DNA from: Clostridia bacterium
Lineage (GTDB): Bacteria; Bacillota; Clostridia; Oscillospirales; Acutalibacteraceae
Assembly: GCA_017432485.1 (NCBI GenBank)
Contig: JAFRJB010000078.1
Location: 1 to 64,000 of the forward strand
DNA: 64,000 nt
Direction: 5' to 3'
Part shown: one piece after another, positions 16,977-50,472 of the stretch
Numbering within the stretch: the first letter of the stretch is position 1
Layout: each line of letters opens with the position of its first letter
The notes under the pieces: model-generated
What the model saw: the letters and a program-made list of their open reading frames with translations, nothing else
Databases searched by the model: none
Told to the model about the DNA's origin: nothing
Position numbers and translations under genes: made by a program

Positions 16977-17411
16977 TTAATACTCTGCTTTGTCGGCATC
17001 TGCTTTGGTCTTATGTATCGTGCCAAAAGGATGCTCAGGCGGCGCATAAACCGAAAGAATTTTGAGCGGGCGATTGCTGATATTCTTAATGTTGTGCCAA
17101 GTGCCCGCCGGCACAATCACAGCGTCACCGCTACGCACGGTGCGCTGCAAAGCAAGCGCATCCTTACTCTCACCCATCATTGTAAGTCCTGTTCCCTCTT
17201 CAATCAAAAGCAACTGGTCCGTAGTTTTGTGCTGCTCAAGCCCCACTTCACTGCCGGGTGCAATGCTCATCAATGTGACTTGAAAGTGTTCACCTGTCCA
17301 AAACGCGGTTCTGAAGTTGCGATTTATCCGCGCTTCACGCTGCGCTCGAAAAATAAGCGCTTGTTTGCCGTAATCTGTAATTGACATAGAATGCATTGGT
17401 CTGTTTGCCAT
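16977..17411 (-). CDS. Cupin domain protein, paralogue 1
   Basis: 144 residues forming one cupin barrel. Metal-binding motif 1 is seen in EVGLEQHKTTDQLLLIEEG (histidine, glutamate) and motif 2 in VPAGTWHNIKN. The family resembles small mannose-6-phosphate-isomerase-like or redox cupins. A second copy, clearly the same protein with about four residues in five identical, lies at 50038-50472. AGGAGG precedes the ATG. Enzymatic role not known. Confidence 0.85.
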   Translation of the reverse strand: MANRPMHSMSITDYGKQALIFRAQREARINRNFRTAFWTGEHFQVTLMSIAPGSEVGLEQHKTTDQLLLIEEGTGLTMMGESKDALALQRTVRSGDAVIVPAGTWHNIKNISNRPLKILSVYAPPEHPFGTIHKTKADADKAEY

Positions 17412-17617: not shown

Positions 17618-18040
17618 TCATCCTTTTTTCTTTTGCCGATAGATTTCTTTTAAATTATCCACTGCCATTTGATTTTCCATCGTGTGGAACATTAAGTAGT
17701 TTCCTGACATTGTTTTGGGCGACGCCTGTTTCAAAATTTCTCGACTGCTTTCACCGGTATAGTAATGCCAAAATCGGTAAAGGTACCCAATCCAATACAT
17801 CACTTCTTTATCAAAGCAAGTGCCGCTAAGCAGCTTTTCTTTGAAATCACTTGCGAGCTCATCCATCAAGTATTCCTCACCTACCCATTGTGTTCTGTCA
17901 AACTCCGCATCTAAGCCTTTTGCGATCTGAGAAGTCATAAACACGGTGATGAAGTTCTTGCTTTCAAATCCTTTTTCAACCGATAATTGAAAAAGTCGCC
18001 CTTGCATATCACACAATTTTCTCTGTAAACTATCCATCAA
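17618..18040 (-). CDS. Putative antitoxin/partner of HTH-DUF3990 toxin
   Basis: 140 residues, all-alpha in appearance, with conserved-looking FMTSQIAKGLDAEFDRTQWVG and VMYWIGYLYRFWHYYTGESS. No named domain recognised. It overlaps the toxin stop by four bases (ATGA), so the two are cotranslated. By context it is the second half of a two-gene toxin-antitoxin-like unit; since the DNA-binding domain is fused to the toxin gene, this protein would be the neutralising or cofactor subunit. Confidence 0.6.
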   Translation of the reverse strand: MMDSLQRKLCDMQGRLFQLSVEKGFESKNFITVFMTSQIAKGLDAEFDRTQWVGEEYLMDELASDFKEKLLSGTCFDKEVMYWIGYLYRFWHYYTGESSREILKQASPKTMSGNYLMFHTMENQMAVDNLKEIYRQKKKG

Positions 18041-18900
18041 TTCGCCTCACCGAGTATTTCATCGAAATAGTTGCCTGCTCGCCTGTTTTTCTTATACATC
18101 TCATCCGTAAGCTTAAGCCCTTTTTGCCGATAATCCGCACTCGCCTTTTGAATAATCTCTTTTTCAAAGAAAGATAACTCAATTTCTTTTTCAATCTTGA
18201 CTTGCCGACATGCAGCTTCATTGAGGCAAACATATTGTTTACCAAGCTTCAAAACAGAAAGGCAAGAAATCAGCGCAGCATCCGTAACAACCCCTTCAAA
18301 AAAGTCATCTAAAACACGGTACATTCTGTCATTCGCGATACTGCCAATAGCAAAATCATAGCCTGTCATAAGATTTTGATATTTTTTATATAAGCTCGTG
18401 CCTTGGATATCCTTCATCTTTTTTCTGTTAAAAGCGATAAACATTGCCCACTCAATATCATCATGAAAAGTAAAACTGTTGGCAATGCTTTTCGGTAGAG
18501 ACACAATATAAAACTTTGATTTATTAAAACTACAAACGAGCGTTAAAGGCTGGCGAGGAATTGTTCCCAAATAAAAGCCTTTTCCGAAATCACATTCACT
18601 TCGACTTGAAGGCATTATTTTCCCTTCCACGCCGGATTTAGAGCCATGGTATAATACCATTCTGTTATCCGGTATGTTACATGCCTTTTCCTCATTTGCA
18701 ATCTTTTCAAGAATAAAGTCAAAAGCGGGAATATCGTTATCATTGCAGAGCTTAATTAAACTGTCTTGGGCAAGCTTAGATAATTTATTGTGCCCGTTTT
18801 CACAGCGATTAATCGTTGCAAAGGAAGTGCCCAGCTTTTCTGCAAATTCCTTTTGACTTAAACCGAGATACTCTCGTATTCTTTTTACAACATATTGCAT
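18037..18900 (-). CDS. Xre-type HTH fused to DUF3990 (ADP-ribosyltransferase-like) toxin
   Basis: 287 residues. Residues 1-55 are an Xre/Cro HTH (YLGLSQKEFAEKLGTSFATINRCENG). From about residue 82 the DUF3990 domain begins with VLYHGSKSG and DFGKGFYLGT, motifs of the ART-like toxin fold. DUF3990 proteins are presumed NAD-dependent ADP-ribosyltransferase toxins. Having HTH and toxin in one chain makes this protein both repressor and effector. The promoter carries two matching palindromes, consistent with autoregulation. Confidence 0.8.
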   Translation of the reverse strand: MQYVVKRIREYLGLSQKEFAEKLGTSFATINRCENGHNKLSKLAQDSLIKLCNDNDIPAFDFILEKIANEEKACNIPDNRMVLYHGSKSGVEGKIMPSSRSECDFGKGFYLGTIPRQPLTLVCSFNKSKFYIVSLPKSIANSFTFHDDIEWAMFIAFNRKKMKDIQGTSLYKKYQNLMTGYDFAIGSIANDRMYRVLDDFFEGVVTDAALISCLSVLKLGKQYVCLNEAACRQVKIEKEIELSFFEKEIIQKASADYRQKGLKLTDEMYKKNRRAGNYFDEILGEAN

Positions 18901-19305: not shown

Positions 19306-20958
19306 TTATGTATTATCACCGTTGTCCTTTTGCTCGTTTAAGATTATATCTATTTTTTCTCTTACTTCTTTTTGTATTTTTTTTATTTTTTCTTTATCCC
19401 CAACAAATTCTGTGCCTACTCCTGTTGAACAAAATCTCATAGCAGCAAGCTTTTCATCATCACTCATAGCAATGTCTCCTATTCCGGCAAGTTCATAAAG
19501 CTTTTCAAGCACCTTTACCATCGCGTAAGTATCTAAGCCGCAGTAGGCAAGCAGATTTTTGCGGATAGTCTCTTGCTCTTCGGGTGTATGGTTTTGCAAA
19601 TCCGGGAACGCTGCCATCGCTTCGCTGCCGTTGTGAATGCCCTCCAAGTTGTGGTAATCGAGCGCAGGGTCATCAGGGAATAGCGCCGGCAACACCACTT
19701 TAATGGAATAGGAATTCCCCATCGCCTCGCTGTAGTAATACTTCTTTTGGAACGGCAGCATCAAATCTTTCATGTTGTCGTGAATATTCATCAGGTGGTC
19801 GGCAAGGTCGGGAAACTGCTCTGCCAAGGCGCGAATGACACCTTTTTCAAACTTCATATTGTAAGCAAGCGAGCACACATCTTGCGGAATATCGCGGCAC
19901 AGCTGCTCGGCAAGCGCGCGGCGCGGATCTGTACCTGCAACTCCCAAATGCTCGCGGTGCTCGGGTTCTGCGCCCGGTGCACGCTGAATGTGGAGCGAAT
20001 ACTGGAACGGCACCTGCATATACGGTCTCTCGCCATCGTGCTGCGGCACGGCAGGTTGATAGGTCTCAAAATCGAGGTGATACAGCGGGTAAGTCAGCTG
20101 CGCCAAAAAGTCGCGAATCCCCTTTTTGTCTACATGCGGCGGCAAATGCTCTACCGCGCTTTTGACTTGCAGTAATTGCGCTTGATTGAGCTTTACATCA
20201 TGCTCCAAAATGTCTTCGAAGCTCACAATACCGCGGTAATACAAATCATATTTTTTATCACTTGCAAAGCGCTGTAAATCAAACACATTGTTTGTGGGCA
20301 AATGCCGCGCGCAATAGTTGTAATACGCGCACTTATAGGGTGACTCGCACCAAGGACCGATGTCCCGCTCCGGCTCAAAGTCATCACACCGCGCCATATA
20401 GCGGCGAATGTCGGCAATATTGATTGCCACGCCCGCCTGCTTGCGCAGCACGATCTCGGTGCAGTCCTCTTTTGTAAACAGCTCCTTCAAATCCAAATCG
20501 CCCCTACGTACATAGTGGCTGTTGACATGCAGATTATACACCCCGCTGATGCGCACACCACACTGCGTGAGCACAAAATATTGAAACGCCATATCATCCA
20601 AATAGACATCTTTCAAATGCGTGGAGCTTTTCACCTCGACCAAATCCCAGCCGGTAGGCGTTTTGTGCAGAATATCCACACTGCAAAACAGCCCATCAAC
20701 CGCAAAACTCGCCTCTGCAATATTCTCCACGCCCTGCACCATCAGTTCTTTTGTTTGCTCAAGCATGGCATCAAAGCCCGCATCGAAATCCACAAGCGAA
20801 TAGTCGCCAAAGTACTGCCTTGCCAAATCACCAACCTCGTTGCCGACGGCAAAGACCGCCGCGGCGTTATCTTCCGCAAGTTCGGGTTTGAAATAGTCCA
20901 TCCACAGCATTTTCGGACACTGCAGTGCGCGGGTGTATTTTGATTTACTTAAGTTCAT
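19306..20958 (-). CDS. DUF2779 nuclease: Cas4-like PD-(D/E)XK plus DEDD exonuclease
   Basis: 550 residues. The N-terminal half is a Cas4-like nuclease: an early cysteine (Cys14), DLVEVKSST (about 104-112, the ExK strand) and a later CESPYKCAYYNYC cluster (about 205-217), suggesting a four-cysteine Fe-S site. The C-terminal half has DEDD exonuclease motifs: YHLDFETYQPAVP near 295, LAYNMKFEKGVI near 366 and AYCGLDTYAM near 472. This is the DUF2779 architecture. It overlaps the upstream PD-(D/E)XK gene by four bases and is the last gene of the 19.3-23.2 kb unit. Two nuclease sites in one chain suggest end processing in DNA repair or defence. Confidence 0.82.
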   Translation of the reverse strand: MNLSKSKYTRALQCPKMLWMDYFKPELAEDNAAAVFAVGNEVGDLARQYFGDYSLVDFDAGFDAMLEQTKELMVQGVENIAEASFAVDGLFCSVDILHKTPTGWDLVEVKSSTHLKDVYLDDMAFQYFVLTQCGVRISGVYNLHVNSHYVRRGDLDLKELFTKEDCTEIVLRKQAGVAINIADIRRYMARCDDFEPERDIGPWCESPYKCAYYNYCARHLPTNNVFDLQRFASDKKYDLYYRGIVSFEDILEHDVKLNQAQLLQVKSAVEHLPPHVDKKGIRDFLAQLTYPLYHLDFETYQPAVPQHDGERPYMQVPFQYSLHIQRAPGAEPEHREHLGVAGTDPRRALAEQLCRDIPQDVCSLAYNMKFEKGVIRALAEQFPDLADHLMNIHDNMKDLMLPFQKKYYYSEAMGNSYSIKVVLPALFPDDPALDYHNLEGIHNGSEAMAAFPDLQNHTPEEQETIRKNLLAYCGLDTYAMVKVLEKLYELAGIGDIAMSDDEKLAAMRFCSTGVGTEFVGDKEKIKKIQKEVREKIDIILNEQKDNGDNT

Positions 20959-22100
20959 TGTTTTAGTCCCTTCAATACGTTTTCTTCCAAAAAATCTGCC
21001 ATTATTTGAAGTTTTCCTTCAATGGAATCCAGAACGCATTTTATTGTGCTATTTTCTTCGATTTTTATAGAAAAAGACATTAATACCATCAAGCTATCAT
21101 CGATCCTTCCCGAAAAAGCAATCTCGCTGTTTTTATTACATGCTTTCCAGTTATTTCTTGCTTTTTTTGCGATATCTATTCTTTCTTTGTTGCACCTATC
21201 TGCAATGCCTTTTAATGGTTCCTCTAACAGATTAATATCGTTTTTCGAATGATACGGGTGTAAATGATAGTCTAATCGACAAGTTAATGTCAGATCTCTC
21301 GGATCATATTTTATCTCAAAATGAAACTCATAGCATTTGTCATAGTTTTCTTGAATGTTTTCTAAACACTCTCCCTCCCAGTGCTCTTTAGGTGTGAAAT
21401 TAGCAGAAAGAAGGTATTTATTGGAACCGGCATCAAACTGATCCCAATAGTGGGAAAGATACGCATTTCTAAAAATCTCTAAGGTTCTGAGAGCATCATA
21501 AAAATTTCTTGCGCCTCTCCATAATTCAGGTTTCATTGTTTCATGCCAATTGGCAGTTAAATCAATAACTTTTGGAAGATAAGCACTAATGATGCGGGTG
21601 TTTAACTGTTTTGCAACTTCTAAAAGTAAGGTGTTCTCTTCTAACTGTTCAAAAACATCCTCATCCAAACACTCACCGATATCTTTCCATTTGAGAATAC
21701 TATATTTTTCACAAGCCGGCTTACTGCCGTGAATGGTTAGATAGTATCGAGCGATAGTGCAGCTTTTCAATTGCAAATCACTTTTGATGATTTCTTCCGC
21801 TTCATAGTATCTTGAAGTTTGCTTTTCACCTTCCGATGCACCGACTTTAACTTCAATAATTGCCAGAGCCTCTTCATTTAAATTGTACACCAAAATGTCC
21901 GGAACAACTTTTTGCCTGCTCCCTGTCTTGATAACTTTTCTGACAACAAATTGCCAATCATTATAACGTTTTATCTGATTCTCGCCAAAGAGTTTTTTAA
22001 GCAAGTTTTTGCGAAACGCTTCAGATTCGTTAAACAATTGCTTCAGCAGATTTGAGTATCCGTCTTCATGTGCCATTAAAATGTCAAAAATATCACTCAT
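20955..22100 (-). CDS. PD-(D/E)XK nuclease-like protein of WYL operon
   Basis: 381 residues from ATG 22100, immediately after the WYL stop; in-frame ATGs at 22115 and 22130 are alternatives. A PD-(D/E)XK core is visible as VVPDILVYN followed by LAIIEVKVGASEGEKQTSRYYEA (about residues 64-95). The remainder is a long alpha/beta region without known motifs, giving no close family. It is coupled both to the WYL regulator upstream and, by a four-base overlap, to the DUF2779 nuclease downstream. Probable DNA nuclease of the cluster. Confidence 0.7.
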   Translation of the reverse strand: MSDIFDILMAHEDGYSNLLKQLFNESEAFRKNLLKKLFGENQIKRYNDWQFVVRKVIKTGSRQKVVPDILVYNLNEEALAIIEVKVGASEGEKQTSRYYEAEEIIKSDLQLKSCTIARYYLTIHGSKPACEKYSILKWKDIGECLDEDVFEQLEENTLLLEVAKQLNTRIISAYLPKVIDLTANWHETMKPELWRGARNFYDALRTLEIFRNAYLSHYWDQFDAGSNKYLLSANFTPKEHWEGECLENIQENYDKCYEFHFEIKYDPRDLTLTCRLDYHLHPYHSKNDINLLEEPLKGIADRCNKERIDIAKKARNNWKACNKNSEIAFSGRIDDSLMVLMSFSIKIEENSTIKCVLDSIEGKLQIMADFLEENVLKGLKQ

Positions 22101-22101
22101 G

Positions 22102-23157
22102 TTATATTTCTTCATATCTTTGCATTGCAATTTTTATATTCTCTTTGCACTTCTCGGCAAGGCTCTGCGGTTCGAGTACCGTGACCTGCGTGGCAAATTG
22201 CAGCGCCCACAGCTCCATATCCTTTTCGGAAATCTTGACCGAAACGGTGACGGTTTCTTCCGTTTCCTCTACAAAGCGCACATCGGTGCCGAAGAAATCG
22301 ATAATGTCATTGAGATTATATTTCTGAGCGCGGAACTTCACCCACACCGGCTTTTCGGTAAACATAGAGATATGCTCACTCATGTGCTTGGTTAAATCCA
22401 AGCCTTTTTCCATCCCCGGTAAAGAGGTAATCGGTTTTGCCTTGCTGCCTTCCACACGGCGAATGTCGGAAATGCGGTCAAGCCGATAGTTGGAAACCTG
22501 GTCATACTTATCGTAATTGCAAACAAGGTAGTACCTGCCGTTTGTCGCTGCAATTTGGTAGGGGTTGATAAGATACTCGCGAGGCTCACCCGCACTGTTT
22601 TTGCGGTGGTGCAGTTTCTTGTCGGTGCCGTATTCATCATAGTGAAAGACCACCTGCTCCCCTTTGCTGATGGCTTCATCCAGGATTTCGAGCGTATAGA
22701 AAATATTATTAGTACTGCTCGCCTTGCTCTTGGCAGTAGCGACATGCTTCATACGCGAAGTGAAATATTTATTGGAAAGGCTTTCCAACTTCCCGATCAA
22801 ACGCTTTTTGTCCCCCTGCGGGATGTGGGAAGAAAAAACGATGGAATCAATGAGCAGGCGCAGTTCCGTGTCATCAAACTCGTGCTCAATGTAAAAGTCA
22901 TAGTAAATGGAATTATCTTCATACTCCCCGGTTTCTTTGTTGAGCACTTCTCGCTTTTTGGTTTCAAACTCAATCGGGTAGCCGCAGTCATACAGTGTCA
23001 TTAAGTTACGGCGAATGGCTTTGCGCTCCACCTTCATGTCATACTCATTTTTGAGGATATTTTGAATTTCCTTTTGCGAGAGCTTGTGCTCACAATCGGT
23101 ATAGCGATTCAAAATATCTAAGATGTTTAATATAATAATCTTTTTCGGTTTATCCAT
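22102..23157 (-). CDS. WYL-domain transcriptional regulator
   Basis: 351 residues from ATG 23157, preceded by GAGGTGAGG; an upstream in-frame ATG at 23241 lacks a ribosome site. The N-terminal winged helix (about 5-75) has the Deo-like KKIIILNILDILNRYTD segment. A WYL domain follows (about 165-250) with VVFHYDEYGTD and YLINPYQIAATNGRYYLVCNYD, then a WCX-type C-terminal domain. WYL regulators sense ligands, often nucleic acid, and frequently control defence operons (BrxR/CapW type). Here it heads the two downstream nuclease genes and may also control the upstream cluster. Confidence 0.88.
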   Translation of the reverse strand: MDKPKKIIILNILDILNRYTDCEHKLSQKEIQNILKNEYDMKVERKAIRRNLMTLYDCGYPIEFETKKREVLNKETGEYEDNSIYYDFYIEHEFDDTELRLLIDSIVFSSHIPQGDKKRLIGKLESLSNKYFTSRMKHVATAKSKASSTNNIFYTLEILDEAISKGEQVVFHYDEYGTDKKLHHRKNSAGEPREYLINPYQIAATNGRYYLVCNYDKYDQVSNYRLDRISDIRRVEGSKAKPITSLPGMEKGLDLTKHMSEHISMFTEKPVWVKFRAQKYNLNDIIDFFGTDVRFVEETEETVTVSVKISEKDMELWALQFATQVTVLEPQSLAEKCKENIKIAMQRYEEI

Positions 23158-23212
23158 GTTCCTCACCTCATAATGTGTTCTCGACAACTTCTGCTTTCTC
23201 TCTTCGATTAAT

Positions 23213-23241
23213 ATTCTATACGGATTGACTCCATAATACAA
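23213..23241 (-). promoter_or_regulatory. Possible promoter of the WYL-nuclease unit
   Basis: Minus-strand TTGTAT (23236-23241) and TAGAAT (23213-23218), 17-base spacer, upstream of the WYL ribosome site. A CCCTATG(T)ACC/GGTGCATAGGG hairpin at 23244-23270 separates this unit from the upstream gene. Confidence 0.5.
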
Positions 23242-23292: not shown

Positions 23293-24075
23293 TTAATACT
23301 TGAATTCATCACCTACCCGAAAGACATATTCCGGATAACGCGGAATGTTTTCTATACGCGTGAATTTCAGCTTTTGGTATTCATCCTCTACAAAGTCACA
23401 AGTGACCACATTAATGAGCCTGTTTTGTGCCAGTTCCCCTCTCACTTCAAAGTTGGCGTACACTGAGGTTCCGTAGGTATACAGGTCATCATAGTCTGTC
23501 TGCAAAAAGATGCTGATATTGTTGCGCTCGGCACAGTTGGCAAGGCGATTAAAATTGCAAAAATCCTCTTTTGCGCGCGCCATGTTATTCTCCGGTGGCG
23601 CAGTGCAGAAATCTTCATACTTTGCAATGTACGCCGCCTCAATATCATCCCTGCTATCCAAAAAGTGAATGATTTCCTCTGTACTGAAACAGCTGTTTTC
23701 GATGTAAAGGTCTCTGCCTTTATACCCTTTCATGGCTTCCACCAAGCGCTCACGCTGTTCCTCTGACAGTTCTTCCTCAAACGGCTCATGTAAATCCGCT
23801 GCCAAGGCTCCTCTCATATATTCCGACAGAGAGCAAGTGGCAAAAATCACCACTTTTTTCTCACTCTTTTCGCTGATTCCTTTTGTGAATTCCAACAGCT
23901 TACTGTACACATCCCAACACAGTGAAGCATTGAAGGTGAAGAAGGCAGAAAGCTTGCCTTTTTCAAAGAAAGCGCTCTTGTCCGCTTCTTCATCACCGGT
24001 TAAGAGCGTGTGCGGCTCCTCATCCACATACATCCTCTTGTACTCATCAAATAACACATCATGCAATTTTTTCAT
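23293..24075 (-). CDS. Unknown protein of the MoxR-VWA cluster
   Basis: 260 residues with no recognised domain. It is acidic, cytosolic in appearance and contains no Walker or metal motif that I can identify; conserved-looking stretches include FFTFNASLCWDVYSKLLEF and KKVVIFATCSLSEY. AGGAGG precedes the ATG, 29 bases after the stop of the VWA gene, so it belongs to that operon. As the only unrecognised member it may be the system-specific subunit. Confidence 0.65.
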   Translation of the reverse strand: MKKLHDVLFDEYKRMYVDEEPHTLLTGDEEADKSAFFEKGKLSAFFTFNASLCWDVYSKLLEFTKGISEKSEKKVVIFATCSLSEYMRGALAADLHEPFEEELSEEQRERLVEAMKGYKGRDLYIENSCFSTEEIIHFLDSRDDIEAAYIAKYEDFCTAPPENNMARAKEDFCNFNRLANCAERNNISIFLQTDYDDLYTYGTSVYANFEVRGELAQNRLINVVTCDFVEDEYQKLKFTRIENIPRYPEYVFRVGDEFKY

Positions 24076-24104: not shown

Positions 24105-25577
24105 TTAAACCTTAATTCTTGCCACCTTGCCCCACGGGGGATTGACTTCTTCATTGTTCAGCAGCCACAGCACCGGAATGCCGTTCGCGAGTTCTTCTTT
24201 CGGGAAAGGCGCAAACCCATCAGTCAGGATAATAATGCTTGCGGGCGGGTTTTCCTGCATATGCTGCTGCACATATTCCAAAATGATTTGAAAATCCGTG
24301 CCGCCACCCCCTGCCGCTTTAATCACTTTAAACTCTTCTTCATCTGCAAAGGGCTGCGGTTCAATTATCGCTGCATCAAAAAAGCCGAGCCAACCTTTGA
24401 GTTTGCCGTTAAATTGGTCAATCGCCCCTTTGATTTCAGAATATGCCGCCGTAATCATATCATCGGACATGGAAGCGGAAGTATCTATCATAAACAAGAT
24501 GTCTTTGACTAACTCTTCCTTCTCATTAAAATCGGGAAGAAAGAAGGGGCTTTCATCAAAGCGCCTGTCAGGCGGTGCAAACGAATAATCGCAGATTTCC
24601 TCCTGCACAAATTCGTTGAGGATCGTTCTCCAGTCGGTTTGCGGTTTGCGCAGTTCTTTGAATAACCTCTCGGCAAACGCCGGCATTAAACCTCTGGAGT
24701 TGGAAGGGTCTCGGATAGTGATGGCTTCGCAGGCATCTTCAAAATGCTTCACCCACACATCGCGCAAAATATCATCTTCCTCGAGCATACCCCACTGCGT
24801 GTGGTCATCCCAAGAACCTTTAGTGCTGCTCTTTGCTTTGCGCTGCTCTTTTTTAGCCCTTCCCTTTTTAAATTGTGATTTGCCACCGCCACCGGCATCA
24901 TCACCGTCACCGGAGTTTTCGCTGCCGTCACCGCCGCCTTCACCATCACCGGAGTTTCCGCCACTGCCGCCTTTACCGCTGCCACTGCCGCCGTTCTCGT
25001 CATTTTCGTCATCACCGCCGCCTTCTGTATCATCACCGGCACTATCCTCGGCTTCATCGTCACTGCGGGCATTATAGCCGCTTGCCGTATCGCCCGGCAT
25101 TTCTACCGGCTCACCGGGTATGATTTCCGGCAGTAATGCATACAACTGCTCTACGGTGTACTCATAGCCTTCTTTTCCATTTGGCGCGAGATGCATTCCG
25201 GGACCTTCGCCTTTGATTGTGATGCTTCCTAAATCCATATCATTGGAAAGCAGGATATTGGAATTGACCACAATATCACAGGCAATATTAAATTTTTCCG
25301 ACTTTCTTTCCCCGGTGCGAAAGCAGTGCTGCAGCACCACATGCAAAATTTCATGCATCAAAATGTAATCGAGTTCCTTATCACTCAGGCGGTCGAGAAA
25401 ATCGGGGTTAAATGCAATGCGCATGCCATTGGTGCAAGCCGTGGGAGTTTTTTCATCCAGTGAAAAGACCATGTGCATTAACAGCAGCCCGTAAAAGCCG
25501 TTATTGTTAAGAATTCTCATTCTTGAATACAGCAGTTTTTTCATAAACTCCTGAATCTTTTCATTAGACAGATCCAT
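24105..25577 (-). CDS. DUF2201 putative metallopeptidase with C-terminal VWA domain
   Basis: 490 residues. The N-terminal DUF2201 domain has HEILHVVLQH (75-84), a gluzincin-like HEXXH plus third histidine. A Gly/Asp/Glu-rich low-complexity linker follows (about 155-240). The C-terminal VWA domain has a complete MIDAS: DTSAS near 364, GGGTDF and IILTDGF. DUF2201 proteins pair with MoxR ATPases, as here: the start overlaps the moxR stop by 14 bases. The pair probably acts as an ATP-driven chaperone/adaptor; whether the HEXXH site cuts protein is unknown. Confidence 0.88.
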   Translation of the reverse strand: MDLSNEKIQEFMKKLLYSRMRILNNNGFYGLLLMHMVFSLDEKTPTACTNGMRIAFNPDFLDRLSDKELDYILMHEILHVVLQHCFRTGERKSEKFNIACDIVVNSNILLSNDMDLGSITIKGEGPGMHLAPNGKEGYEYTVEQLYALLPEIIPGEPVEMPGDTASGYNARSDDEAEDSAGDDTEGGGDDENDENGGSGSGKGGSGGNSGDGEGGGDGSENSGDGDDAGGGGKSQFKKGRAKKEQRKAKSSTKGSWDDHTQWGMLEEDDILRDVWVKHFEDACEAITIRDPSNSRGLMPAFAERLFKELRKPQTDWRTILNEFVQEEICDYSFAPPDRRFDESPFFLPDFNEKEELVKDILFMIDTSASMSDDMITAAYSEIKGAIDQFNGKLKGWLGFFDAAIIEPQPFADEEEFKVIKAAGGGGTDFQIILEYVQQHMQENPPASIIILTDGFAPFPKEELANGIPVLWLLNNEEVNPPWGKVARIKV

Positions 25578-26679
25578 TCATCAAACTCCCTACTTGCTGA
25601 TTCCATTTCACAAATTCCGGAAGTGACATCAGCTTTTGCTTGTAGCCTTCTTCAATGTATTGGTAGTCTTTGAGCAGGACTGTTGAAAAATCAGGCGGCA
25701 TGCGAAACGCATAGCGAATGGAGTTGGCAATTCTCCTCATATCGTCTTTATGCTCGCGGGCATAATAGGTCATGGAAGAAATCAAGGCATACATCGCATC
25801 GGTATTTGTCGGCATTTTGGTCTCCACACCGTCAAAAATATCTTCCATTGCCGGCAGGTCGCGGTAAATCTTCGCCCAGGTTCGAAATTCCACTGCCACC
25901 CCGGTGCCGACAATTCCCGCAATGAGCGCATACATTTTTTCCACATTACTGTTCACGCCGTTTAAAAGGTTGCTCACCATTTCCCACGAACGCGGTGTAG
26001 CAAAGGCGAGGTCATCGGTGCCCGCATCAAAGCCCATCAGGTAATTCTGGCGGAAGGTTAAAAAACCGACCACTTTATCATTCACACCCGCCCCGATTGC
26101 CCACTTTTTCCAGGATTTAAAACTGCCCTCCACTTCAATGTGCATCAAGCGGTTGGCAAGCGCCTTGGGCATTTTGAAGGCAACAGATTTGTCGGTGGTT
26201 CTGTTACCGGCAGCGATCACAATGCAGTTTTCGGGCAGGCGGTGCTCGCCCACCACCCTGTCGAGCGTTATCTGATACGCTGCCGCCTGCACAGACTGCG
26301 GCGCAGCGGAGATTTCATCGAGAAACAAAATGTTGATAATATCCTCGCTGTCATCCATTTGAAAAATCTGCGGTTTGAGCCAAACAGCAAGGGTTTTGTC
26401 CGCATTCGAGGTCGGGATACCGCGCAAATCAATCGGGTTGAACAGCAGCAGGCGCACATCGGTCACTTTCACCTTTTTCCCGGTTCGGGTTTCGATTGCC
26501 CCCGCAATTTGCCGCACCGCTTGCGATTTACCGACACCGGGCGGACCCCACAGCATTACCGACGGCATGGTTTTGACCGGCAAGTTATTTTGAATCAGCT
26601 GTGTGTATGCATCCGAAAGGCGATTTACCATTTTATCGACTGTCATGGACGGAATATTGCTCAGTTTTACATCGTTCAT
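25564..26679 (-). CDS. MoxR-family AAA+ ATPase
   Basis: 371 residues. Walker A WGPPGVGKSQAV (44-55), Walker B NILFLDEISAAP (about 117-128), sensor region IVIAAGNRTTD and PKALANRLMHIEVE are those of MoxR AAA+ ATPases. TAGGAG precedes ATG 26679. The start overlaps the helicase stop by four bases and the end overlaps the VWA gene, giving tight coupling of helicase, MoxR and VWA proteins. MoxR proteins remodel partner complexes with VWA proteins as adaptors. Confidence 0.92.
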   Translation of the reverse strand: MNDVKLSNIPSMTVDKMVNRLSDAYTQLIQNNLPVKTMPSVMLWGPPGVGKSQAVRQIAGAIETRTGKKVKVTDVRLLLFNPIDLRGIPTSNADKTLAVWLKPQIFQMDDSEDIINILFLDEISAAPQSVQAAAYQITLDRVVGEHRLPENCIVIAAGNRTTDKSVAFKMPKALANRLMHIEVEGSFKSWKKWAIGAGVNDKVVGFLTFRQNYLMGFDAGTDDLAFATPRSWEMVSNLLNGVNSNVEKMYALIAGIVGTGVAVEFRTWAKIYRDLPAMEDIFDGVETKMPTNTDAMYALISSMTYYAREHKDDMRRIANSIRYAFRMPPDFSTVLLKDYQYIEEGYKQKLMSLPEFVKWNQQVGSLMNGSV

Positions 26680-29600
26680 TTTTCTACTCCTAACTGTTCA
26701 TCCAATTCTTCGAGTTCTTGTTCTTTTTGCGCAATCGCGCCGGTATAATCTTCTCTTTTCGGCAATTCTTCCTCAATGGCGCTTTGCCGCGCTTGCATCG
26801 CAGCAAGACCTGCCCTAAGCTTCTTGTAATACTCCGGGAGATTTTCGAGGAAATGGTCAATTCGAATCAAATTACCGACTTCCGTTTTCCCGAGCTCTAC
26901 ATAATACCTGCCATGTCTTTGTAGCCAAATATAGGGATTTTCTTCGCTCATATTTGCAGGGAGAATGATGTCAAACCCCTGATAGTTATAAAACACTCTT
27001 TCCTGAATCTGTAGCGCATTTTGGCACACGGCTTCGTGAAGCTTGGCGCGTAGGGCAAGGCGCTCTTCCTTGCTATACTCTCGAAAGAACTCCGGGCTTT
27101 GCTCCAAATCCAAGCGGCAGTTTTCAATCGCCTGCTGCTGGTTTTGCAGCTTTGCCGGCAGCGCTGCCAGTTCCTGCTCCAAGCGCATTTTGGTTTCCAC
27201 CTGCTTGTGCTGCAACACAATAAGGCGATTGAGTTTATTGGCTGTTTCCACGCGCCGCTTCATCAAAGGATTGCCAATGGCGATGGCTTTAACCTCCGCA
27301 TAATCGAGCACGGTATCGTCAATATCGCTTGCACTGCGCTGTGCCACACAGCCGGAGAGCAAGTCCGTAATAAAGCGCTGCTTGGTTTCGAGCAACTGCC
27401 AGGAATACGCATCAAAACTGCCTTTGGTGATGTAGCGAAATATTTGCACGCGCTCATTGGTATTGCCCTGCCTTAAAATTCTGCCTTCGCGCTGTGTCAT
27501 ATCCGAAGGCCGCCACGGCACATCGAGGTGGTGCACGGCAATGAGTTTTTGCTGCACATTGACCCCGAGCCCTAATTTAAAAGTGGAGCCGATTAATACG
27601 CGCACTTCGCCCGCATTGAAGCGCTTAAACAATTTCTTTCTTTGGTTTGCCGAGGCGGCATCGTGAATAAAAGCGATTTCTTCGGCGGGAATGCCGTAGG
27701 TGATGAGCAGGTGCTTGAGTTCATCATATATGTTGAACACACCCTTTGGCGTTGAAATATCGCAGAAGACAATTTGGGTGGCTTTTGCGGCGGAAGTTTT
27801 TTGATAGACATCAAACACATTTTCCGCACAGCGCACCACTTTTGACTGCATGGTAAACCCGTAACGCTGATTATCTATCAGGCGCAAATCCAGCGCGCCC
27901 TTTCTGCCATCGGTAGTGATTTTGAGCATATTGTCATCGGTGCGATTCACGCTCCCGCAGCGCACGGCATCGGCACGGCAGGATATTTCCATCAAAAAAT
28001 TTTCAAAATCTTGTGTTTTGGGAATAGTCGCCGTTGTGTAGCCGTCAAAATCCGGCAAGCCGACATTATCCATAGAATGAAAATCCGCCACAGAGGAAAA
28101 CAGCGCCGTCAGCTCCGGCAGATTGTGAAACTTTGCAAGCCTTGTAGCAATGCGGTAATTAGTGGTATCCACATCTACCTCAAACTCCTGGCTCTTTTCC
28201 GCAAACATGCCCACCCAACTGTCAAAGCTCTGCAAATCCACGCCGGCAAGTTCGCCGCTTTGCAGGTATTGCTGCATGATATAGGCATCCGTTACGGAGT
28301 TGGTAATCGGTGTGCCCGTCGCAAACACCACGCCCTTACCGTCATTTTGCTTTTGCACCATGTGGACTTTATCCATCATATCCTGACAGCGTTTGGAACC
28401 GCTTTTATTGACACCCAGGATGTTCCCCATCTTTGTTTTGAGGGGCACATTTTTAAAATTGTGTGCTTCATCTACAAACAACCGCGTAATCCCAAGTTCA
28501 TCGAAGTACAGCCCGTCATAACTGTCCTCAATCACACCGATGATTTCCCGCAGTTTTTTCTGCAGTTTGAACCGGTGCCTGCTGAGCGTGTTGGTGGATT
28601 TCATCCGCTTATGAATGATTTCTTCAATCTCTTTGATTTGGTCGTTGAGCTCATCCTCGTAATAATCGCGCGAAAGCGGGATCATTTCAAAACAGCTGTA
28701 TGTCATCAGAATGGCATCATACGTATTGTCGCGCATTTTTATGAGGGTGTTTTCTCTTTTGGCGGGCGAAAAATTGTTTTGATTGACCACCAGCAGATTT
28801 GCCTGCGGGTACATGGTGCGATAAATGCTGACCCACTGCGTGAGCACATTGTTGGGTACGACATATAGATTCTTTTTGGAAAGCCCCATGCGCTTTAATT
28901 CCATGCCTGCCGCAATCATAATGTAGGTTTTTCCGGCACCCACATCATGCGCCAAAAGGGTATTCGGCGTAAACAGAATTCTTGCCACCGCATCTTTTTG
29001 ATAGGGGTACAGCTTCACTTCGGGTGACATATTCGGAAATTCCAAAAACGAACCGTCAAAAATGCGGCGCTTCACACAGCTGAACCGGTCTTCAAAGATT
29101 GTTGTTAAGCGCTCTTTTCTGTCCTTATCACTCCAAACCCATTTTTGAAAGCACCGGGTGAGCTCCTTTTGTTTTTCGAGTGCCAAAGCGGTTTCGGAAG
29201 CATTGAGCGTTCTCTTGTTTGTGGATTTATCGGTATCATATACCGCAATTTGCCGCAAATTGATGGTTTTCTCCAGCAAGTGGAGCGCATTGATTCTGCT
29301 TGTACCATAGGTGCTGGTTGCTTTCACTTCTCTTGCATACAGCCATTTGTTGGTGATTTCCCATGTGCCGGTAATATCATCATGACTGACAAGGCAATAG
29401 CATTTTTCACATTGACGTAAATACCGATTTTGATACGGCTCACCAAACAAGTAAAGGATGAATGCCTCTATTATGTCAGTCGGCACCCACGGCGTACCAA
29501 GCGTGATATAAATATCTTTGGGTGCCACGGCTTTGGGCAGCACCGCTTCGATAGCACTGATGTTTTCGCTAAAATAGCCGTTGTATTTTTTGTTTGCTTC

Positions 29601-30152
29601 CAAAGCGGCGTCATACTTGCGCATCATATTGCCTGAAAGGTATTCATCCGCAGTTTCCCAGCCTTTATAAAAACACTCATTCCAAGTCAAAGGATTTTGG
29701 TAAATGCTGCCTTTGAGCGCCTTAATGACGGTTTTGTAGTCATTCCCGGTAACGGAAGCAATAAATTCAATATCCACCACACCCAGTGTGGCGAGGGACT
29801 TTATGAGCGCATCGGGAATGCTGTCAATGTGAATGCCCTGAGCGCACTCGAGCGCGTTAAACGGATTGCTCCAACTTAGCGGCAAATCCATGCTCGTCAC
29901 AGCTTCAATATGTGCCTGTTCGCGCTGTTTTCTCTCCTGTTCCAGGCGCGCTTTTTCCTCTTCGCGCTTTTTGCGGTCAGCTTCTTTTTTCTTCTGCTCG
30001 GTTTCGTTTTTCATTTGCAGCAAATCATCAAAAGCCAACTGCAGTGATTCGGTTGCCACATCCAAATCTTCCTGCGAAAGCCTGTCGCCGAAGTCTTTTA
30101 AGTTTTGAAAAAACTCATCGAGTATTTGCTTTTTTTGGCTGATATCGCCCAT
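26676..30152 (-). CDS. SNF2/DarB-type SF2 helicase without methylase domain
   Basis: 1158 residues. A charged coiled coil (about 45-85) is followed by the domain that normally precedes the helicase in DarB-like methylase-helicases of conjugative elements (AAEANKKYNGYF-type helices, LGTPWVPTDIIEAF). The helicase has AHDVGAGKTYIM (about 403), FVDEAHNFKNV (about 560), FATGTPITNSVTDA (about 617) and DVPWRPSDMTQREGRILRQG (about 885). A C-terminal coiled-coil region follows. No N6-methylase motif is present, so this is a stand-alone version of that lineage. It is coupled to moxR by ATGA, pointing to a DNA translocase remodelled by the MoxR-VWA pair. Confidence 0.85.
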   Translation of the reverse strand: MGDISQKKQILDEFFQNLKDFGDRLSQEDLDVATESLQLAFDDLLQMKNETEQKKKEADRKKREEEKARLEQERKQREQAHIEAVTSMDLPLSWSNPFNALECAQGIHIDSIPDALIKSLATLGVVDIEFIASVTGNDYKTVIKALKGSIYQNPLTWNECFYKGWETADEYLSGNMMRKYDAALEANKKYNGYFSENISAIEAVLPKAVAPKDIYITLGTPWVPTDIIEAFILYLFGEPYQNRYLRQCEKCYCLVSHDDITGTWEITNKWLYAREVKATSTYGTSRINALHLLEKTINLRQIAVYDTDKSTNKRTLNASETALALEKQKELTRCFQKWVWSDKDRKERLTTIFEDRFSCVKRRIFDGSFLEFPNMSPEVKLYPYQKDAVARILFTPNTLLAHDVGAGKTYIMIAAGMELKRMGLSKKNLYVVPNNVLTQWVSIYRTMYPQANLLVVNQNNFSPAKRENTLIKMRDNTYDAILMTYSCFEMIPLSRDYYEDELNDQIKEIEEIIHKRMKSTNTLSRHRFKLQKKLREIIGVIEDSYDGLYFDELGITRLFVDEAHNFKNVPLKTKMGNILGVNKSGSKRCQDMMDKVHMVQKQNDGKGVVFATGTPITNSVTDAYIMQQYLQSGELAGVDLQSFDSWVGMFAEKSQEFEVDVDTTNYRIATRLAKFHNLPELTALFSSVADFHSMDNVGLPDFDGYTTATIPKTQDFENFLMEISCRADAVRCGSVNRTDDNMLKITTDGRKGALDLRLIDNQRYGFTMQSKVVRCAENVFDVYQKTSAAKATQIVFCDISTPKGVFNIYDELKHLLITYGIPAEEIAFIHDAASANQRKKLFKRFNAGEVRVLIGSTFKLGLGVNVQQKLIAVHHLDVPWRPSDMTQREGRILRQGNTNERVQIFRYITKGSFDAYSWQLLETKQRFITDLLSGCVAQRSASDIDDTVLDYAEVKAIAIGNPLMKRRVETANKLNRLIVLQHKQVETKMRLEQELAALPAKLQNQQQAIENCRLDLEQSPEFFREYSKEERLALRAKLHEAVCQNALQIQERVFYNYQGFDIILPANMSEENPYIWLQRHGRYYVELGKTEVGNLIRIDHFLENLPEYYKKLRAGLAAMQARQSAIEEELPKREDYTGAIAQKEQELEELDEQLGVEK

Positions 30153-30228: not shown

Positions 30229-32475
30229 TTATTCTTTCGATTCTTCAAATGCTTTCATTTCTTCTCGTACTTCCTCAAACTCTTTGGGGTAATTAAGCTT
30301 GTACCACAACTGCTTAAATGCCGTGATCATGTATTCCACCGCGTGTGCTTTCGGGAACAAATAAAGAATTTTTTTCGCTGATTCCAGATACCAATCGGGC
30401 ACACCGATTTCTTTGAGTGCATTTTCGTAATCGGGCAAAAACCGTTTCATTTTGCCTTTTCTTACCGCTTCGCTGATTTTGTAACAGTCAAGCCGGCTTA
30501 AAGGCGCTTCATTTCCCGTTTTTGCTTCATACTCAAATCTTTTCTTGTCAAGATAAAGAAACACACTCTCTCGAAAATCTATCACTTCGCCCAACTCACA
30601 AGTTTTGTTTGCAAGCAGGTCTTTCGCATTGTCCTCATAGGTATCTGTGCCTTGAAAAAGCCCGTTCAAAGTGACATAATCTGAAAACTTCTGCGGTTTT
30701 GTGTGCGCAAATGCTGCTCTGACATAATCCGTGTCAATTTCAAAAACACCACCGGTATTTCCCGCTTCAATCGCCTCTAAAATGGCGGCATTGTCGGCAA
30801 GGTCATTTTCCGTTGGCTTAGCGCCTGTTTTTTCTTCGAGCCTTCGCAACATTTGAGGTGCATCATGCCCTATGATATCCACTTTGAATAATGTATCATA
30901 AAGCGCCTCAAAATACGACAAATGAGTCACAGCAATGCGCTTCCCCTCATCTTCAATCACTTCCACCGGAGTGAAATCTTCAATCTCATACCCCTGCGGG
31001 ATAAAGAGCAAAGCTGCCGGGTTCATACAGGTCCTGCGAAAAGCGCCTTCACATGCCTTTGCAACAAACTCTTTTTCCTCGACCGAAAGGTCGGGCAAAA
31101 GATTTTCCACCAAACTTTTGGCGGTTCTATATGGCACTATCGTTGCCAAGCCGCCTCTGATCGTTTTGCAGTTTTCCAACAGCGTTTCGGCGAAAGCCAT
31201 GCATGCTTCTCGGTATTCCGTGCAGTAATTCAAAACGAGATACGGCTCTTTATCACCTTCATAAGCAAATAGTGTTTCGTATGGGATGTTGTGCCCATCG
31301 CGCACCATATCATTCCCGCAATGCGGGCATTTTTTCGCCGGCAAATCGAAGCCGGAGGCGAAGCCCGGGGCAAACTCTGTATGGTAGCAATGCTCACAGC
31401 GGTAATGCGCCGGCAAAGGGTTGGTCTGTGTCAGCCCCAGGCAATAGGCAATCAGTGACGAACCGACAGCACCTCTGGAAATAACGGGAAATCCCTTTGC
31501 TTTGCTTTCATCGACAAGTTTCATTGCAACCCAAAAAGGCAACGCAGACCACTCTTCGTTCCCATGCAAAAAACCGAGTTCTGTTTCAAGCCGCGTTTTG
31601 ACTAACTCCGGCAAGGTTTCACCATACATCTCTTTTGCTTTGTCATATGCGCGCTGCTCAAGTTTTATATAGGCACCTTTCGGCAAATCGGGACGATAAA
31701 TGCTGGGTGGAATCGGTCGAACATCCTCAATTTTTTCCATAAGTTTATAAGCATTATCAATTACCACTTCTTCCGCCTGTTCGCCGAGATATTCAAACGC
31801 CGCTAACATTTTTTCTGTTGTGAATAATGACAGGTCTTCAAACATTTCGGGGTCTTTCCCTTTGGAATAAAGCAAAACCTGCCTTGCTATCGCATCCTCT
31901 TCTTTTAAATAGTACGGGCTGTTGGAAGCAATCACAAGTGTTTCTGCCTCTTTTGAAAGGGAAATGATTTTTTCAACATCCTCATGCCCATTTAATGGAC
32001 TTACGAGAATAAAATCATAAAACTTCATTGTTTCTATGATTTCACTCTCATTGTCGCAAAGCCCGAGCTTACAAATCACATCAGAATGTATTCCGTTTGT
32101 GCCGACAAATAAACCCTCCCTGCTTTCCAATTCGGCATAGCCGTTTTGGTAATATGCCGAAATGAGCTTATAAAGATTTTTCCTGCCGGTTTCATTTTTG
32201 ACAAGGAAAATAATTCTGCTGTAATCGTTCTCATCATCCACTTCGCAATAGATTCTGCCGTTTTTATAAAACGCCTCCATGCCGAGAATGAGTTTGATAC
32301 CTTCTCTCTTTGCATATTTATATGCCTGCGGCAAGGCTTTCACCGAACCGATATCGGTGAAGCCAATCGCTTCCATGCCAAGTTTTGCCGCATGTTCAAC
32401 GATCTCTCTTGCACTGTTTACCCCGTTCATCTTGGAGTAATTCGAGTGCATATTCAGTTCTATTCTTTGTCTCAT
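30229..32475 (-). CDS. PolC-derived pseudo-polymerase with degenerate PHP domain
   Basis: 748 residues from ATG 32475, with AAAGGAG upstream. It aligns along PolC from the PHP domain to the KAHA motif: EREGLFVGT-like segment, SRGAVGSSLIAY, Zn cluster CEHCYHTE...KKCPHCG, FASGFDLPAKKC, FPKAHAVEY. The inserted 3'-5' exonuclease, OB domain and C-terminal clamp region are absent. The PolC catalytic PDIDLNF reads PYLVLNY (about 411) and the third aspartate in HFDFH reads HLSYF (about 516), so all three polymerase carboxylates are gone. In PHP, His10 and Glu67 remain, but HxH, the D after MS and VTDH are changed (NMH, MNG, FTDI). It is probably a catalytically dead DNA-binding scaffold. Confidence 0.85.
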   Translation of the reverse strand: MRQRIELNMHSNYSKMNGVNSAREIVEHAAKLGMEAIGFTDIGSVKALPQAYKYAKREGIKLILGMEAFYKNGRIYCEVDDENDYSRIIFLVKNETGRKNLYKLISAYYQNGYAELESREGLFVGTNGIHSDVICKLGLCDNESEIIETMKFYDFILVSPLNGHEDVEKIISLSKEAETLVIASNSPYYLKEEDAIARQVLLYSKGKDPEMFEDLSLFTTEKMLAAFEYLGEQAEEVVIDNAYKLMEKIEDVRPIPPSIYRPDLPKGAYIKLEQRAYDKAKEMYGETLPELVKTRLETELGFLHGNEEWSALPFWVAMKLVDESKAKGFPVISRGAVGSSLIAYCLGLTQTNPLPAHYRCEHCYHTEFAPGFASGFDLPAKKCPHCGNDMVRDGHNIPYETLFAYEGDKEPYLVLNYCTEYREACMAFAETLLENCKTIRGGLATIVPYRTAKSLVENLLPDLSVEEKEFVAKACEGAFRRTCMNPAALLFIPQGYEIEDFTPVEVIEDEGKRIAVTHLSYFEALYDTLFKVDIIGHDAPQMLRRLEEKTGAKPTENDLADNAAILEAIEAGNTGGVFEIDTDYVRAAFAHTKPQKFSDYVTLNGLFQGTDTYEDNAKDLLANKTCELGEVIDFRESVFLYLDKKRFEYEAKTGNEAPLSRLDCYKISEAVRKGKMKRFLPDYENALKEIGVPDWYLESAKKILYLFPKAHAVEYMITAFKQLWYKLNYPKEFEEVREEMKAFEESKE

Positions 32476-32531: not shown

Positions 32532-32561
32532 AAAAAAGTCCCACACCGGGGAAGTGTGGGA
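32532..32561 (-). terminator. Terminator of lipoprotein gene
   Basis: TCCCACAC (32539-32546) pairs with GTGTGGGA (32554-32561), with a six-T run on the minus-strand 3' side. It isolates the lipoprotein gene from the downstream cluster. Confidence 0.85.
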
Positions 32562-33788: not shown

Positions 33789-34715
33789 TTATTCTTCAAT
33801 AAGTTTTTCCCATTTTGTTATTGAGTCAGGGAGAATGTTCTTATATTCATTATAAAAAGCCATTAATTCTTCCCTTTGAACAATTATACACCGTGAGTCT
33901 TCCGGGACATTCTCGATGTGCGGTGCATATAAATAAACTAAGTAACCACCATCAATATATGGCTGATAATCTAAAGCGTTTATTGTCTTTTTCTTTCCGC
34001 CTTTTGCTTGCACAACAGCCCTTCTCTTGTGTTTTTTACTTCTTGATATTAGTTCGCATTCTATTTTTACGGTTGTAGACTTATTTGCAATTGAGTTGGA
34101 TAACACATAATAGTCTTCTTTAATTTGAAGATAAGAAATAACTAATTCTTCTAAATCAAAATCAGGCAAATTATCTAACAAGTTTCCTTGAATAGCATTG
34201 TACGAATACTTCTTTCTTTCCGATACCTTATTAAATATATATTTTGAATACTCAAAAATCAGTTGCTGTGAATCATTTTGTTTTATTATTTCAGCAGTAC
34301 CGCCTCTTGGTCGATTAAATGATGCTTTGATTTGCCCGGGAACCTCTAAACCAACTCGAAAAGCCTCTACAGGCAATATAGCACCAATATCTTTATCACC
34401 ATCAAAATAAGGTAATGGTTTGTCAACTAATACACTACAAATCCAGTAATATCCTTCTAAATCACGAGTCCAGTACAAATCATCTTTTTTTACATCCCAA
34501 AAAAGATTAAAAACAGGGCTTATTCGTTTTACATGCTTTTTTGTAGCATTGTAAAAATCCTCAAAACTATCAAAATGATTTGTTGCTTCTTTCTCGTAAA
34601 TATTCGTCCAACCAATTGCCAAAAACTGTTCTTTACCATTAAGGCAGAAATCAATCAAATCATTTCTTTTTTTTGCAGATGTTTTTAAATGTATTCTTGT
34701 TGCATATTCGTTCAT
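33789..34715 (-). CDS. PUA/EVE-like domain plus PD-(D/E)XK-like nuclease domain
   Basis: 308 residues. The first 130 residues (FLAIGWTNIYE ... LYWTRDLEGYYWICSVL) resemble PUA/EVE-superfamily domains that read modified bases. The C-terminal half contains VKIECELISRSKKHKRRAVVQAKGG, similar to the E...QxK strands of Mrr-like PD-(D/E)XK nucleases, then YLVYLYAPHIE. A base-modification reader joined to a nuclease would be a type IV-like restriction enzyme. Domain calls are by eye and the catalytic set is incomplete; GAGG precedes the ATG. Confidence 0.55.
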   Translation of the reverse strand: MNEYATRIHLKTSAKKRNDLIDFCLNGKEQFLAIGWTNIYEKEATNHFDSFEDFYNATKKHVKRISPVFNLFWDVKKDDLYWTRDLEGYYWICSVLVDKPLPYFDGDKDIGAILPVEAFRVGLEVPGQIKASFNRPRGGTAEIIKQNDSQQLIFEYSKYIFNKVSERKKYSYNAIQGNLLDNLPDFDLEELVISYLQIKEDYYVLSNSIANKSTTVKIECELISRSKKHKRRAVVQAKGGKKKTINALDYQPYIDGGYLVYLYAPHIENVPEDSRCIIVQREELMAFYNEYKNILPDSITKWEKLIEE

Positions 34716-50037: not shown

Positions 50038-50472
50038 TTAATACTCAGCTTTGTCTGAATCCTCTTTAGTCTTGTGGACAGTCCCAAACGGGTGGTGCGG
50101 CGGGGCGTAAACCGAGAGGATTCTGAGCGGGCGGCTGCCCGCATTTTTGATATTGTGCCAGGTACCTGCCGGCACAATCACGGCATCGCCTTGGCGCACA
50201 AAGCGCTGCATGCCGAGCGCAGCGGCGCTCTCGCCCATCATCGTCAGCCCCGCGCCCTCTTCAATGAGCAGCAGTTGGTCGGTCGCCTTGTGCTGCTCAA
50301 GCCCCACTTCACTGCCGGGCGCAATGCTCATCAGAGTCACTTGCAGGTAGTCCCCTGTCCAAAACGCGGTTCTGAAATTGCGGTTTGCCCGCGCCTCACG
50401 GTGAGGCCTGAAAATGAGCGGTTGTTTGCCGTAGTCGGTCAGCGGCATGGCATTATTCATAGGTCTGTTCAT
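50038..50472 (-). CDS. Cupin domain protein, paralogue 2
   Basis: 144 residues, the sister of the 16977-17411 protein, with the same LEQHKATDQLLLIEEG and VPAGTWHNIKN metal-binding motifs and the same HPFGTVHKTKED tail. GGAGG lies ten bases before the in-frame ATG. Codon use here is more GC-rich than in copy 1, so the duplication is not recent or the copies have had different histories. Confidence 0.85.
   Translation of the reverse strand: MNRPMNNAMPLTDYGKQPLIFRPHREARANRNFRTAFWTGDYLQVTLMSIAPGSEVGLEQHKATDQLLLIEEGAGLTMMGESAAALGMQRFVRQGDAVIVPAGTWHNIKNAGSRPLRILSVYAPPHHPFGTVHKTKEDSDKAEY

Follow-up and report, generated by a model that had tools for sequence, protein, structure and literature searches.

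A core-only PolC paralogue with replaced catalytic residues beside a SNF2-MoxR-DUF2201 gene cluster in Clostridia

Results

The window, a 64,000-nucleotide stretch of contig JAFRJB010000078.1 from a Clostridia bacterium of the family Acutalibacteraceae, carries on its reverse strand a row of genes in the order ApaH, a lipoprotein, a short PolC (polC_par), a SNF2 helicase, a MoxR ATPase, a DUF2201 (vWA) protein, g260, a WYL regulator, a PDDEXK_4 nuclease and a DUF2779 protein (Table 1). The MoxR and vWA genes overlap; together with SNF2 they are referred to below as the trio. The frame of polC_par is uninterrupted over 748 codons, opens with an ATG at 32475 and has an AAGGAG ribosome site, an alternative GTG start at 32544 being less likely, and the terminator-like hairpin upstream of the gene suggests that it has its own transcript start.

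Table 1. Features of the polC_par locus (window coordinates)
Feature	Position	Strand	Details
polC_par, short PolC paralogue	30229..32475	(-)	748 aa; PHP-palm-thumb-fingers only
Palm motif PDIDLNF replaced by PYLVLNY	31234..31242	(-)	Y412 and V414 replace the first two catalytic Asp
Third carboxylate replaced by Ser	30916..30918	(-)	S520; Ser common to the G550 orthologue
Four-Cys zinc site, retained	31318..31398	(-)	C360, C363, C383, C386
12-residue fingers insertion	30502..30537	(-)	residues 647-658
Terminator-like hairpin, 5' of polC_par	32539..32561	(-)	
SNF2-family helicase, first trio gene	26676..30152	(-)	Walker A GAGKT and DEAH present
MoxR-type AAA+ ATPase, second trio gene	25564..26679	(-)	
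DUF2201 metallopeptidase-like + vWA protein, third trio gene	24105..25577	(-)	HExxH and DxSxS present
g260	23293..24075	(-)	260-aa genus-specific protein
WYL-domain regulator	22102..23241	(-)	
PDDEXK_4 nuclease	20955..22130	(-)	PADLOC candidate PDC-S26; the genome's only PF14281 match
DUF2779 protein	19306..20958	(-)	weak Cas4-like match

Elsewhere in the window we find a TOTE conflict-system protein with AEP-TOTE primase, helicase and PLD-like domains (10483-13338), an AAA_11/12 helicase (8001-10397), a DUF3990 protein (18037-18900) and a PDC-S02 candidate defence gene (33789-34715), which mark the region as a defence-type island. Two cupin genes (16977-17411 and 50038-50472) match one and the same gene of genome G616 (86% and 83%), an apparent duplication. 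The IMG/VR contig L113 has a serine-recombinase element fused to the trio's SNF2 gene in its 3' part, which looks like the insertion of an integrative element, and a recombinase related to that of L113 lies at 2288-3994 of the window.

Homology of polC_par to PolC runs through the PHP, palm and fingers domains. Residues 3-731 align with Geobacillus PolC 3f2b (phmmer, E=2.2e-125), the NCBIfam PolC model gives the protein 555 bits, its cut-off being 873, and the top PDB matches of the predicted fold are 3f2c/3f2b (E=6e-48), in agreement with the collinearity claimed in the initial annotation; the domain arrangement of the model is unreliable (mean pLDDT 72.8, rmsd 19 A). Since the host genome also encodes a normal full PolC (C130, 1305 aa) and DnaE (C51), polC_par is a paralogue.

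Nearly all of the approximately 35 PolCs that we aligned read HHDHEHCDH at the PHP site, DDD in the palm (DDE in two) and QHPGG; PMC12926913 gives the PHP consensus as HHDHEH[C/H]DH. By contrast, polC_par reads NHNIERGSY, YVS and MNPAA at these positions, while all four zinc cysteines are kept and the SRG(A)VGSS, RKGK and FPKAH motifs are present. Residue alignment thus bears out that all three polymerase carboxylates are replaced (D412Y, D414V, D520S) and that most PHP ligands are gone as well, with two of nine, H10 and E66, remaining. Outside the window copy, the 12-residue fingers insertion occurs only in PolCs of the same genus and of two related genera.

The polC_par chain starts at the PHP domain and stops after the fingers, lacking (HhH)2 and the clamp-binding tail, which in the host's own PolC ends in NQVSLFDF. 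The exonuclease and C-terminal region are absent, as had been noted from the sequence, and the N-terminal/OB region, which had not been named among the losses, is missing too. The lack of an exonuclease is, however, no special trait of polC_par: the host PolC, the other PolCs of the genus and many relatives are also without it, so the loss was inherited. According to PMC3919608, about 6% of published PolCs lack the exonuclease, nearly all of them from Clostridia and Negativicutes. In the host's own PolC (G000:C130) all nine PHP ligands are present while the exonuclease insert is missing, and PHP would therefore be its sole intrinsic proofreader. The PolC of Priestia megaterium plasmid pFDU301A shows another combination, a destroyed PHP site (QFRVTESHH) with an intact polymerase triad.

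Two of the seven genomes of the genus carry polC_par: that of the window and G550, whose orthologue, cut by the contig at its 5' end, is 57% identical and reads DDS and VNNAM. Between the two copies, codon positions 1 and 2 are 73% identical and position 3 is 41% identical (pN 0.27; pS 0.77, saturated), and by this comparison purifying selection acted on the frame for at least a large part of the time since the split from G550. The end of the fingers (77% identity) and the surroundings of RGAVGSS (72%) are the best conserved between them, the surroundings of DxD (36%) the least. About two-thirds of the positions conserved in the PolC class are retained in polC_par. Basic residues are not significantly enriched among the retained positions (25/31 versus 246/358 for other conserved residues, p=0.22), and we therefore discarded their preferential retention as a sign of DNA binding.

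Five further core-only PolCs were found in G517, G529, G571, G032 and G113. Their chains begin with the PHP domain or a little upstream of it, and stop a short way past the fingers or in a tail remnant; the G113 frame has approximately 130 extra residues at its start. Truncation at both ends (loss of the N-terminal/OB region and of most or all of the C-terminal tail), loss of the consensus PHP site and the gene neighbourhood are common to all short PolCs found. The palm triads range from DDD (G517, G529, G571) through DDE (G113) to DDH (G032). No viral relatives of short PolC were found, and two candidates were rejected as ordinary PolCs next to ispG, namely the phage record MT836562, first taken for an exonuclease-less paralogue, and a PolC fragment in G044.

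The initial annotation had asked whether the palm substitutions are conserved in relatives, or whether relatives in the same operon have intact active sites. The three substitutions of polC_par are not conserved, and same-cluster relatives retain two or three of the acids (DDS in G550, DDE in G113, DDD in G517), so an intact triad does occur in the family setting, though not in every relative. Because these relatives keep acids, catalytic loss is an end point reached in the window lineage and not a fixed family trait. The Asp-to-Ser change at the third carboxylate is common to polC_par and the G550 copy, as is the loss of two PHP ligands (S, Y), which most likely places the onset of inactivation in the ancestor of the two; judging from the aligned residues, the window lineage most likely lost the other two palm acids after the split.

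The short PolCs of G517, G529, G571, G032 and G113 form one clade (100/99). The polC_par/G550 pair joins the PolC of its own lineage in the all-column tree (88/86) and has the 12-residue fingers insertion in common with it, whereas with PHP and palm columns only it joins the other short PolCs (98), and a single clade of all short PolCs is not rejected (AU test p=0.09). These trees are compatible both with one origin followed by gene conversion and with two origins.

Short PolC adjoins the trio in three families of the order. In G113, from another family than the window genome, the genes run PDDEXK_4 (opposite strand), WYL, a 264-aa gene, short PolC, SNF2, MoxR and DUF2201, with the PolC-SNF2-MoxR-DUF2201 order of the window and with SNF2 and MoxR 57% and 71% identical to those of the window. 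In G032, from a third family, WYL, SNF2, MoxR, DUF2201 and two AAA proteins accompany short PolC, together with DUF2779; the SNF2 gene there (L099 15248-18774) is split into two overlapping frames, through a frameshift or an assembly error. These two genomes overturned the view that the trio is unrelated to PolC, which four loci of the class with a trio and no PolC had suggested. Trio-type MoxR is present in 5 of 172 sampled genomes of the order, and every short-PolC genome recognised (at least three of the 172, among the matches listed) is one of them (hypergeometric P=1.2e-5); with the discovery genome excluded, both short-PolC genomes fall among the 4 of 171 with trio-type MoxR (about 4e-4). 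Most trio genomes (G904, G885, G973, G782 and G044) have no short PolC. As several genomes of the class have the trio by itself, short PolC is not required by it and counts as an accessory. In the stretches read, G517 and G529 have short PolC without the trio.

Other neighbours recur as well: WYL regulators lie near short PolC in 5 of 7 loci, and PD-(D/E)XK_4 nucleases in 5. The PDDEXK_4 gene is the only one of its kind in G000, G517 and G529 and is located 0.02-8 kb from short PolC each time, 20 bases upstream of it in G529. Its presence near newly found short PolCs was predicted beforehand, and it was found 2.4 kb away in G113; BLAST detected no PDDEXK_4-like gene in the 40 kb read around the G032 short PolC. 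In G517, short PolC shares its strand with PDDEXK_4 and WYL, and DUF2779, ApaH and an FtsH-like AAA protein lie near by; G550 has a compact array with overlapping frames comprising polC_par, g260, a 71-aa gene, WYL, PDDEXK_4 and DUF2779.

In that G550 array the start codon of g260 overlaps the stop codon of polC_par. The genus genomes G616 and G456 keep g260 without polC_par, with ApaH followed by g260 in both. Divergence of g260 from G550 matches that of polC_par, and the adjacent WYL, PDDEXK_4 and DUF2779 genes are 91-98% identical, a mosaic pattern. In Foldseek the g260 model, which is poor (pLDDT 45.7), resembles RecA/RadA/DnaB folds (best E=6e-3), and comparison with the host's own DnaB gives z=6.1 for one orthologue and z=-0.3 for the window g260 (Smith-Waterman), with an hhalign probability of 50%; no sequence match was found in Pfam or PDB. 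A degenerate DnaB is thus suggestive only, and we consider it possible, going by the model, that g260 has a degenerate RecA/DnaB-like fold.

Discussion

In this study we describe a PolC paralogue that has lost both active sites and lies beside genes of a defence-like kind. Our tentative reading, which we hold at a little short of even odds, is that polC_par is a catalytically dead, core-only PolC acting as a non-synthesising binding subunit of a SNF2/MoxR-vWA defence-like machine. A non-catalytic role fits both the loss of the two active sites and the selection on the frame. This bears out the initial annotation in part, and the scaffold or DNA-end reader suggested there is one form that such a role may take. 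With its polymerase hand the protein would still hold on to primer-template DNA or to a partner in the replisome, and it would bring the SNF2/MoxR-vWA machine, perhaps along with neighbouring nucleases, to the replication intermediates of an invader or to a damaged fork. Binding of DNA or of a partner, recruitment, and a purpose in defence or repair are what we infer for polC_par, and the gene neighbourhood points to anti-phage defence as a possible role of the cluster. Since ATPase, HExxH and MIDAS-like motifs are kept in SNF2, MoxR and DUF2201 of the window, the trio looks active while the PolC part is dead.

This role would not be family-wide, because the short PolCs of G517, G529 and G571 keep all three carboxylates, and the palm sequences are best read as successive steps in the loss of catalysis among the members of one family. 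A broader proposal, plausible to us but doubtful, is that a hitherto undescribed conflict or repair system comprising SNF2-MoxR-DUF2201 with WYL and PD-(D/E)XK proteins recruited a PolC core, possibly twice independently, as a recognition subunit with eroding catalysis. If so, this would be the first case of an inactivated polymerase of the C family that has its own role. We found no description of the short PolC and SNF2-MoxR-DUF2201 combination in the open-access literature, and PADLOC recognised no such system. MoxR-vWA pairs form the centre of known conflict systems (PMC7159879); WYL regulators can sense ssDNA (PMC11804915) and are found with phage-defence loci (PMC9122601).

The cluster has likenesses to several known systems. 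In common with the FtsH subtype of the MoxR-vWA ternary conflict systems (Kaur et al. 2020, PMC7159879) it has MoxR and a vWA protein in the window and, close to the short PolCs of G032, G517 and G571, an FtsH-like AAA/M41 protein, although the latter has one AAA domain by Pfam. It differs in its third component: where those systems have VMAP, iSTAND, a double FtsH or a beta-propeller protein, the window has SNF2 and short PolC, and no caspase-type effector is seen. The SNF2 helicase is weakly similar to DISARM DrmD and BREX BrxH (PADLOC, E about 1e-17 and 3e-14), but its scores lie far below the curated cut-offs (57.8 bits against 610 for DrmD), and no DrmA/B/C, PglX or PglZ partners were recognised among the proteins and families scanned by PADLOC. 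With PolC itself (3f2b and C130), polC_par shares the collinear PHP-palm-thumb-fingers core, the four-Cys zinc site and, with PolC of its own lineage, the fingers insertion, at approximately 33-39% identity and without the terminal regions, catalytic acids and PHP site. The inactivated Y-family mutasome polymerases ImuB and iPolY are likewise dead polymerase homologues kept in an operon with partners, yet polC_par belongs to the C family, its partners are SNF2, MoxR and DUF2201 rather than DnaE2 and RecA, and no clamp motif is seen.

It is rather unlikely, in our estimate, that short PolC is or was an active translesion or gap-filling polymerase of the cluster, of which the window copy is an inactive remnant on its way out. 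Such decay agrees with the graded series from DDD to YVS, with the restriction of polC_par to two of the seven genus genomes and with a very long tree stem (2.85 changes per site). A gene on its way out is, however, hard to square with an intact 748-codon frame that has its own start and ribosome site, with first and second codon positions conserved against G550 while third positions are near saturation, or with the two-thirds of class-conserved positions kept, the zinc cysteines among them.

The fold kept while catalysis was lost, the fingers and zinc region best conserved between polC_par and its G550 orthologue, and the defence-type neighbourhood would also suit a guard, in which a PolC-like core (perhaps together with g260, given its resemblance to DnaB and RecA/RadA folds) mimics replisome surfaces, so that attacking invader proteins bind it and trigger the nucleases of the cluster. 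We regard such a decoy as improbable: no PolC-targeting protein of an invader was identified for these hosts, the likeness of g260 rests on the poor model described above and fails for the window copy, and G616 and G456 have g260 without polC_par.

Less probable again, and unlikely by any measure, is a regulator of the host replicase that competes with or caps PolC/DnaE at primer ends, for example slowing replication under stress. Its derivation at least partly from host-lineage PolC, with the fingers insertion in common, would favour such a role, but the clamp-binding tail and the N-terminal/OB region are missing, and the gene cluster points to conflict or repair, not to replication control. 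Continued catalysis via other metal ligands, for which the retained SRG(A)VGSS, RKGK and FPKAH motifs could speak, is very improbable with none of the three carboxylates remaining and the DxD region the least conserved between the orthologues.

The two surveys of C-family polymerases note PHP sites that have been inactivated, but their accessible text describes no inactivated polymerase site (PMC3919608, PMC12926913); such fragments were removed in the former, and in the latter, sequences that were truncated or had diverged strongly were dropped ahead of the tree. The graded series DDD, DDE, DDH, DDS and YVS allows a direct test of catalytic loss, and a non-catalytic replicase core kept beside a SNF2/MoxR-vWA machine would represent a new mode of recognition for replication intermediates.
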